46,617 bases of DNA from Rhodoferax sp. GTDB lineage: Bacteria > Pseudomonadota > Gammaproteobacteria > Burkholderiales > Burkholderiaceae_C. A model generated the notes under the pieces. It ran no database searches. It had not been told where the DNA came from and saw nothing but the letters and a program-made list of their open reading frames with translations. A program made the position numbers and the translations under genes. How positions within the stretch are numbered: the stretch's first letter is position 1; each line of letters opens with the position of its first letter. The stretch is taken from the NCBI GenBank assembly GCA_011391545.1, contig JAABQI010000274.1, forward strand, positions 1-46,617, written 5' to 3'. Below, piece after piece: positions 34,599-41,503 of the stretch.

Positions 34599-36137
34599 TT
34601 AGCCTTGGGCCGCCACTCGCTCAGCTTGGCTCTGGAGCTTGTTCAGGGCACTCAAGTAAGCTTTGGCGGAAGCCACCACGATGTCGGGGTCGGCGCCAAC
34701 ACCGTTGACGATGCGGCCATTGCTCTGCAGGCGCACGGTCACCTCGCCCTGGCTTTCGGTCGAGCCGCTGATGGCGTTGACCGAATACAGCACCATCTCG
34801 GCACCGCTCTTGACGTTCGCTTCAATCGCCTTGAGCGAGGCGTCCACAGGCCCGTTGCCATTGGCCGTGGCGGTGACCTCCTTGCCGCCGATGGTCATGA
34901 CCACCGTGGCTTGCGGCATCTCGCCGGTTTCGCTGTGCTGCGACAAAGAAACAAAGCCAAACTGGTCATGGCTCTGGGCGACATTTTCCTCGCTGACCAA
35001 AGCCAGAATGTCCTCGTCAAAAATCTCGCTCTTGCGATCGGCGAGTTCCTTGAATTTGGCAAAGGTCAGGTTCACGTCGACTTCGCTTTCCATCAGCACC
35101 CCGAGCTCCGCCAAGCGCTGCTTGAACGCATTGCGTCCGCTCAGCTTGCCCAGCACGATCTTGTTGGCGGTCCAGCCCACGTCCTCGGCACGCATGATCT
35201 CGTAGGTATCACGCGCTTTCATCATGCCGTCCTGGTGAATGCCAGAAGCGTGGGCAAAGGCGTTGGCGCCAACGATGGCCTTGTTGGGCTGCACCACAAA
35301 ACCGGTGGTTTGGCTCACCATGCGGCTGGCCGCCAGAATCTGGGTGGTGTCGATACCCACGTCCAGATCAAAATAATCGCGCCGGGTGCGCACGGCCATC
35401 ACCACTTCTTCCAGACTGCAGTTGCCAGCGCGCTCGCCGAGCCCGTTGATGGTGCATTCAACCTGGCGCGCTCCGCCGATCTTGACACCTGCGAGCGAGT
35501 TGGCCACCGCCATGCCAAGGTCATTGTGGCAATGCACCGACCAGATCGCCTGGTCGGAATTTGGCACACGTTCACGCAGGCGTTTGATAAAGTTGCCATA
35601 CAGTTCGGGAATGGCATAACCCACTGTGTCTGGCACGTTGATGGTGGTGGCGCCCTCCTTGATCACGGCCTCAATCACCCGGCACAGAAAGTCCTCTTCG
35701 CTGCGGTAGGCGTCTTCGGCGCTGAATTCAATGTCGGCCACCCGGTTGCGGGCAAAACGCACGGCCTGCTTGGCCTGCTCCAGAACCTGCTCGGGGGTCA
35801 TGCGGAGTTTTTTCTCCATGTGCACCGGCGATGTGGCAATGAATGTGTGAATCCGCGCCCGGTTGGCGCCCTGCACCGCGTCGGCTGCCAGCGTGATGTC
35901 ACGGTCATTGGCGCGTGACAACGAGCAGACGGTGGAGTCCTTGATGGCATGGGCAATGGCCTTGATGGCCTCAAAGTCGCCATTGGAACTGGCAGCAAAA
36001 CCGGCCTCGATGACATCGACCTTCAAACGCTCCAACTGCCGGGCAATGCGCAGTTTTTCATCGCGCGTCATGGAGGCTCCCGGCGACTGCTCGCCGTCAC
36101 GCAAGGTGGTGTCAAAAATGATTAATTTGTCTGACAT
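34599..36137 (-). CDS. leuA: 2-isopropylmalate synthase
   Basis: [62 protein letters not shown]...[20 protein letters not shown]-terminal LeuA dimerisation/regulatory domain. Confidence 0.97.
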
Positions 36138-36187
36138 GTCATTTCTCCTGGGATGTTTACAAAGGCGATGAAAAGGGTCTTGGCAAT

Positions 36188-36220
36188 AAAAAAGCCCGTC
36201 GCGGATGCTGACGGGCTTTT
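36188..36220 (-). terminator. Intrinsic terminator / attenuator hairpin in leuA leader
   Basis: Minus-strand AAAAGCCCGTC-AGCATCCGC-GACGGGCTTTTTT: stem-loop followed by a T-run, between leader ORF and leuA. Confidence 0.75.
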
Positions 36221-36240
36221 GGGGTTGATGCGATCACGCG

Positions 36241-36294
36241 CTAACCACTCCGCCCGCAGGACGTTGTTGTTAGCAGTAGTGAAAATTGATGCAT
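36241..36294 (-). CDS. Candidate leucine leader peptide MHQFSLLLTTTSCGRSG
   Basis: ATG CAT CAA TTT TCA CTA CTG CTA ACA ACA ACG TCC TGC GGG CGG AGT GGT TAG on minus strand: three consecutive Leu codons, two of them CTA, just upstream of the terminator hairpin and leuA. Confidence 0.65.
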   Translation of the reverse strand: MHQFSLLLTTTSCGRSG

Positions 36295-36358
36295 GACTTC
36301 AATATAGCACAGCTTGAGGTCAAGCTTCGGCTCGCCATGCTTCGGCTGGCGTTCCGCC

Positions 36359-40716: not shown

Positions 40717-41008
40717 GATGAACCTTTGTGAATTTCTCTAACGAAATACCTTGGGTGCTTCTTTGCAAACACTTGTGGTGTTGCATCGAAACTTAAGGCC
40801 AAAACCATGGGCGCATTGATTTCTGCGCCGGACCTTGACCCGTTTGCTTTAATTTGCAGCCAGCATTATGGCACTTGTCAGCCAGCGCCTGCATTTCGCC
40901 CAGCGGCAATGCAATAATTCAGCTCTTTCTTTCAGGTGTCGCGCAGGCTCTAATCAGGGCAATTCGCACCCGGAAAAAGTTTATAACCGACATTAACGCG
41001 CCACCTGA

Positions 41009-41503
41009 ATGCCCCCGAACACCATTACCCCAAGCCTGCTCCGCCGCATGGCCTGCTGGCTTTACGAAGGCATGCTGTTGTTCGGCGTGGTTTTTATAGC
41101 CGGCTACCTCTTCGGCACACTGAGCCAAACCAAAAACGCCATGGACAACCGCCACGCCCTGCAGGCGTTTTTGTTTGTCATCTTCGGCATTTACTTTGTC
41201 TGGTTCTGGTCCAGAGGCCAGACTCTGGCCATGAAAACCTGGCACATCCGGGTGTTGGACCGTGACGGGCAGCCGTTAAGCCAAGGCCGCGCCTTGCTGC
41301 GCTACCTGTGGAGCTGGCTGTGGGTTTTGCCGCCGCTGGTGGTGTCGTGGGGATTTGAGCTCAGGGGCGGCGAAGCCATCGTGATTTTCGTCGGCTGGAT
41401 CGCCGTGTGGTCCATCCTGAGCCGTTTTCACCCTCGCCAGCAGTTCTTGCATGACGCGCTGGCCGGAACGCAACTGGTGGACACCAGCCCGCCAAAGCCT
41501 TGA
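41009..41503 (+). CDS. RDD family membrane protein
   Basis: LLRRMACWLYEGMLLFGVVFIAGYLFG...GQTLAMKTWHIRVLDRDGQPLSQGRALLRYLWSWLWVLPP...HDALAGTQLV. Confidence 0.88.
   Translation: MPPNTITPSLLRRMACWLYEGMLLFGVVFIAGYLFGTLSQTKNAMDNRHALQAFLFVIFGIYFVWFWSRGQTLAMKTWHIRVLDRDGQPLSQGRALLRYLWSWLWVLPPLVVSWGFELRGGEAIVIFVGWIAVWSILSRFHPRQQFLHDALAGTQLVDTSPPKP

Follow-up and report, generated by a model that had tools for sequence, protein, structure and literature searches.

The charting of attenuators has concentrated on gammaproteobacteria, alphaproteobacteria and actinobacteria. Among the closest described systems, the leu leader of Salmonella has CUA as an experimentally supported control codon, and a change of CUA to CUG lowered its sensitivity, as the work is cited in a later paper (Carter et al. 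1986, cited in PMC1183508). In the rnTrpL RNA of Sinorhizobium meliloti, the 5' end of the transcript coincides with the ATG of a short leader open reading frame (ORF) that contains control codons and is followed by an attenuator terminator (PMC7298713), and the LEU element of Actinobacteria places a leader ORF with leucine (Leu) codons before leuA (PMC1262725). Here, we describe the leader of leuA in a stretch of 46,617 nucleotides (nt) from Rhodoferax sp. (contig JAABQI010000274.1 of assembly GCA_011391545.1; the whole stretch is referred to below as the window), which we consider very probably to be a leucine-responsive, ribosome-mediated transcription attenuator of leuA that is carried on a leaderless leader messenger RNA (mRNA).

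The original prediction, made from the nucleotide sequence alone, had placed a leader ORF with the codons CTA-CTG-CTA at 36294-36241, a terminator about 20 nt further on and the start of leuA at 36137, all of which could be read directly and proved exact to the base. The leader ORF carries a run of Leu codons, and an intrinsic terminator lies between this ORF and leuA. The features of the region, in the order of transcription, are the following.

36301..36311, minus strand: extended -10 promoter element TGTG-C-TATATT (in alignment A1, TG and TAnAnT hardly vary; TG in 85/87 leaders)
36295..36300, minus strand: spacer of 6 nt between the -10 element and the ATG, with a predicted start site (6 nt in 47/87 leaders, 7 nt in 34/87)
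36241..36294, minus strand: leader ORF MHQFSLLLTTTSCGRSG-stop, 17 residues, without a Shine-Dalgarno sequence (from the sequence and the leaders of relatives)
36271..36279, minus strand: control codons CTA-CTG-CTA, Leu-Leu-Leu (from the sequence and the codon bias across leaders)
36239..36275, minus strand: hairpin 1:2, arms 36275-36259 and 36255-36239, with the stop codon in the 3' arm (minimum free energy fold)
36252..36259, minus strand: segment 2, CTGCGGGC, 5' arm of the antiterminator (GGGC invariant; paired to segment 3 when the ribosome is modelled as stalled)
36208..36216, minus strand: segment 3, GCCCGTCAG, common to antiterminator and terminator (GCCCG invariant in alignment A1)
36188..36220, minus strand: intrinsic terminator 3:4 with a T6 tail (fold energy and compensatory changes)
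36145..36149, minus strand: Shine-Dalgarno sequence AGGAG of leuA (read from the sequence)
34599..36137, minus strand: leuA, 2-isopropylmalate synthase type 1 (NF002087, 892 bits against a cutoff of 729; TIGR00973, 702 bits against a cutoff of 599)

The leader begins with the ATG at 36294 and ends with the stop codon TAG at 36243-36241; 20 nt then separate the stop from the terminator hairpin, the arms of which are AAAAGCCCGTC (36220-36210) and GACGGGCTTTTTT (36200-36188).

The nearest relatives of this leuA come from Rhodoferax, Limnohabitans, Acidovorax, Polaromonas and other Comamonadaceae, the family name being taken from the records of these relatives. The upstream regions of 80 relatives' leuA loci were fetched and read; the leader stands directly before leuA in 50 of them, and these 50 leaders, together with that of the window, were used to build a covariance model (R1). 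Matches to R1 were detected in 106 of the 151 genomes that represent the family of the window (E<1e-8 in 76 of these; certainty is lower for the weakest matches) and in 12 of the 300 members of an order-wide sample, where a single genus outside the family has a believable leader (L117-L119); a further weak match outside the family (L121) is a terminator ahead of a tRNA gene and hence spurious. In a class-wide sample, matches were confined to members of the window's family. As judged from these searches, the leader is limited to this family and one genus of another. The covariance-model search found one copy in the genome of the window (3.06 Mb, 79% complete), and one family genome (G045) contains two strong copies, on contigs C77 and C12. 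Altogether, 87 distinct homologous leader sequences were collected, each with a Leu run, and the statistics below refer to this set. Conservation on this scale excludes a chance origin of the leader, and the original prediction, which had staked itself on conservation of the leader ORF across relatives, stands on this point.

The choice of codons in the Leu run departs sharply from that in ordinary genes. The 395 Leu codons of the leaders comprise 205 CTA, 127 CTG, 33 TTG, 17 CTT, 9 CTC and 4 TTA (these counts and the spacings below are slightly distorted by L004, L028 and L057, which were parsed from an upstream start), so that CTA makes up 52% of Leu codons in the leaders versus 0.54% (16/2957) in the leuA genes of the fetched loci. 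These leuA genes and six genes of the window, in which CTA accounts for 1/175 Leu codons, served as the reference for codon use, and CTA is indeed rare, as had been expected for this genome. The genome of the window encodes tRNA-Leu(UAG). We considered whether CTA might be chosen merely to pair with the TAG stop; leaders that end in TAA keep their CTA codons, indicating a separate reason for the codon choice. A threonine signal was likewise rejected, as the Thr-Thr-Thr of the window's peptide is not conserved among the 87 leaders. The geometry of the leader is also constrained: GGGC begins 9 nt past the last Leu codon in 63/87 leaders and ends 8 nt ahead of the stop in 81/87. The observed spacing fits the usual footprint of a ribosome, which would leave segment 2 open when stalled in the Leu run and cover it when at the stop codon.

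The terminator is supported both by its stability and by its pattern of substitution. Its hairpin folds at -19.8 kcal/mol (z -6.5; whole leader, z -4.1), 4 of its 10 pairs have changes on both sides, 98.4% of the cells are paired, and 30 cells are changed on both sides compared with 8.5 in shuffles; the compensatory stem changes that had been proposed as a check are therefore present. When the energies of the native partners were compared with those of permuted partners, the z values were -4.0 for 1:2, -1.3 for 2:3 and -11.8 for 3:4, which are not to be taken as probabilities because permutation leaves shared ancestry in place. With the ribosome modelled as a 31-nt block on the RNA, a block on any of the three Leu codons and nascent RNA extending through segment 3 yielded the antiterminator CTGCGGGC:GCCCGTCAG at -20.5 kcal/mol, the structure for which a folding check had been suggested, and a block at the stop codon left the terminator alone. 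On nascent RNA, stalling of the ribosome at the control codons is thus predicted to favour an antiterminator that excludes the terminator.

Upstream of the leader ORF, the sequence TGTGnTAnAnT is nearly invariant and lies 6-7 nt from the ATG in 81/87 leaders. The original prediction had remarked on the absence of a strong Shine-Dalgarno sequence before the leader ATG; this is true of the window and of 85/87 leaders, a Shine-Dalgarno-like word being found in just 2/87. If transcription begins seven or eight bases past the -10 element, a 6-7-nt spacer makes the A of the ATG the expected first nucleotide, and the transcript probably starts there or within about 1 base of it, as far as can be judged from the sequence. 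A -10 element at leaderless distance is combined with the lack of a Shine-Dalgarno sequence, and the latter would be explained, as a conserved architecture rather than a weakness, if the leader mRNA is leaderless. Moreover, the promoter-like element is found immediately 5' of the ATG and not downstream of the leader, which counters the concern that transcription might start beyond the leader. In Burkholderia cenocepacia, also a betaproteobacterium, leaderless transcripts have been documented in which a TA-rich promoter motif replaces the Shine-Dalgarno sequence (PMC4603805). A -35 hexamer was sought by eye, and the candidate TTGACC is only 11 nt ahead of TATATT, so an extended -10 promoter is preferred. 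Directly 5' of the -10 element, the window has a perfect inverted repeat, GCTTGA-CC-TCAAGC (GCTTGACCTCAAGC, 36312-36325); it was rejected as an operator because it is missing from the closest relative. One locus (L004, 1323-1503) keeps the leader with an apparently degenerate -10 element (CCCATG versus TATATT or TACATT in relatives) and is possibly a decaying copy.

The neighborhood of the leader bears on the alternatives. The gene order on the minus strand, read from the ORF translations of the window, is ilvB-ilvH-ilvC-pssA-leuA, where we take the first four to be these genes by recognising their translations, and leuA is named by its NCBIfam match; leuA, pssA and ilvC occur together again in the loci of relatives. 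With only about 65 nt separating the leader from pssA, the two might be co-transcribed, and the leader could then function in translation from a normal 5' untranslated region, on transcripts begun upstream (e.g., at pssA), without being leaderless. Such an arrangement is at odds with the near-constant distance from the -10 element to the ATG, with the general lack of a Shine-Dalgarno sequence and with the absence of conservation 5' of the -10 element in alignment A1, and we regard it as improbable. Still less likely, in our estimate, is that attenuation is secondary and that the leader is conserved for a small peptide with a function of its own, or for the terminated RNA working in trans as a small leaderless mRNA. 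There is a precedent in rnTrpL, a terminated leaderless attenuator RNA that works in trans and the peptide of which has a role (PMC7298713). In the leuA leader, however, only the Leu run and the Gly-Arg specified by the RNA segment GGGCGG are conserved in the peptide, and the N-terminus varies freely; furthermore, the Gly codon is GGG in 86/87 leaders versus 9.5% in leuA, and fixation at this synonymous position points to selection at the RNA level. The least credible alternative is that the hairpin merely terminates an ilvB-ilvH-ilvC-pssA operon, with the leuA promoter located after the hairpin and the short ORF accidental: the hairpin does sit between pssA and leuA, and a simple scan gave no sigma-70 match on either side of it, but it is preceded by a conserved promoter-like element and by a Leu-rich ORF under strong codon and spacing constraint, the 50 nt between the hairpin and leuA are poorly conserved, and at L117-L119 and L134, where no pssA was detected, the leader is found ahead of leuA2.

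Thus, we favour attenuation of leuA from a leaderless leader mRNA, which could operate as follows. RNA polymerase would start at the leader ATG, or within about 1 base of it, from the extended -10 promoter located between pssA and leuA; ribosome loading would occur on the 5'-terminal AUG without a Shine-Dalgarno sequence. When charged tRNA-Leu(UAG) is ample, the ribosome would reach the stop codon and cover segment 2, the 3:4 terminator would form and transcription would end before leuA. Under leucine shortage, the ribosome would stall on the CTA and CTG codons, segment 2 would pair with segment 3 before segment 4 is made, and leuA would be transcribed in the absence of the terminator. It can be predicted that leucine is sensed only by transcripts from the dedicated promoter: on run-in transcripts from the ilv-pssA genes, the AUG would be internal and without a Shine-Dalgarno sequence, and these transcripts should mostly terminate at any leucine level.

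Several considerations weigh against this interpretation. The start site, translation, stalling, termination and the response to leucine are all predicted from the sequence. The antiterminator 2:3 receives no support from covariation, because segments 2 and 3 hardly vary. On full-length RNA, 2:3 loses to the terminator even when the block is in the stalled position, which means that the switch must be kinetic and decided during transcription; other attenuators likewise switch kinetically. A simple promoter and terminator scan of the window reported neither element and recognised no -35 hexamer, plausibly owing to its rules, which call for a -35 hexamer and for loops of <=8 nt in hairpins. Finally, the leader is dispensable: it appears from the comparison of loci to have been lost several times independently, including in Rhodoferax relatives of the window. 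On balance, the attenuator interpretation of the leader is supported by conservation of the Leu codons, the rare CTA and the terminator compensation, together with the predicted antiterminator.

The gene that follows the leader encodes an isopropylmalate synthase wherever checked. This enzyme belongs either to type 1 (TIGR00973), like that of the window, or to type 2 (TIGR00970), two types that are only about 25% identical. In the 14 loci with tandem leuA2-leuA1 genes (L014, L018, L026, L029, L030, L034, L036 and others), the leader precedes leuA2 and none precedes leuA1. In L047, the leader is found solely before a separate leuA2 (L134) and not before the leuA1 behind pssA, and in six leuA1 loci directly after pssA (L022, L024, L037, L054, L068, L079), no leader was found there or elsewhere in the genome. 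The occurrence of one leader before two distantly related isopropylmalate synthases shows that the switch is tied to the reaction step and not to one protein lineage.

In most relatives, a fifth segment past the terminator pairs with the terminator loop and shows clear covariation. In 56/87 leaders, the 9 nt that span the loop of the terminator and the beginning of arm 4 match, at >=8/9 positions, a stretch located roughly 6-25 nt past the start of the T-run, in 35 sequence combinations; examples are L039 (1232-1503), L042 (1316-1503), L075 (1259-1503), L086 (1501-1700), L113 and L116, among others. The 8/9 criterion is weak alone, being satisfied by 23% of the cross-species pairs whose arms differ; the case therefore rests on the energy test and on the matched changes. 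The energies of native versus permuted partners gave z -11.9 for 4:5, close to that of the terminator, and -1.1 and -1.5 for control regions, the downstream control being weak owing to failed folds. Compensatory changes occur at position 4 (C-G/A-T/T-A), position 2 (C-G/T-A/A-T/G-C) and position 8 (A-T/G-C/G-T), and a T-rich stretch follows the 4:5 helix in 34/56. The helix is absent from the leader of the window and its closest relatives. Being made later, it cannot influence the decision at the first terminator. These sequences are compatible with a five-segment chain in which 1:2+3:4 is exchangeable for 2:3+4:5, or with a pseudoknot on the read-through RNA, a proposal that we put forward tentatively, rating it somewhat below even. 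If true, the five segments would provide a further level of regulation once termination has been decided, such as a read-through clamp, a second weak terminator or an effect on mRNA stability.

With respect to known families, no leader family of Rfam reached its gathering threshold in the window, where the sole threshold match is a tRNA gene. The Rfam model RF00512, Leu_leader (threshold 50 bits), did not match the element in a permissive search of the window and five relatives; nor did the T-box and riboswitch models, the weak permissive matches listed being of other kinds. A leader of the same kind was sought before ilvB, at 40717-41100 of the window, and none was seen. We found no published description of the leuA leader in the open-access literature, which leaves priority uncertain with respect to subscription journals. 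By the features tested, the element is a ribosome-mediated leucine attenuator, and its score places it outside Rfam Leu_leader. It would constitute a large, well-conserved leucine attenuator of a betaproteobacterial family that is absent from Rfam and joins attenuation to leaderless translation.

Compared with the enterobacterial leuL (RF00512), the leader shares the CUA control codon, as far as the cited Salmonella work goes, and differs in having no sequence match, a different peptide and no Shine-Dalgarno sequence on the leader ORF, and in controlling a lone leuA (or leuA2-leuA1) that adjoins an ilv-pssA cluster. The resemblance to rnTrpL lies in the 5' end at the leader ATG, the control codons and the terminator; rnTrpL is alphaproteobacterial, responds through Trp rather than Leu codons and is unrelated in sequence, and its 5' end was measured, whereas that of the leuA leader is predicted. 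In the LEU element of Actinobacteria, the Leu codons pair with the Shine-Dalgarno sequence of leuA at the base of a pseudoknot (PMC1262725); the leader of the window, in contrast, has an intrinsic terminator with a T-run and the predicted classical 2:3 / 3:4 switch.
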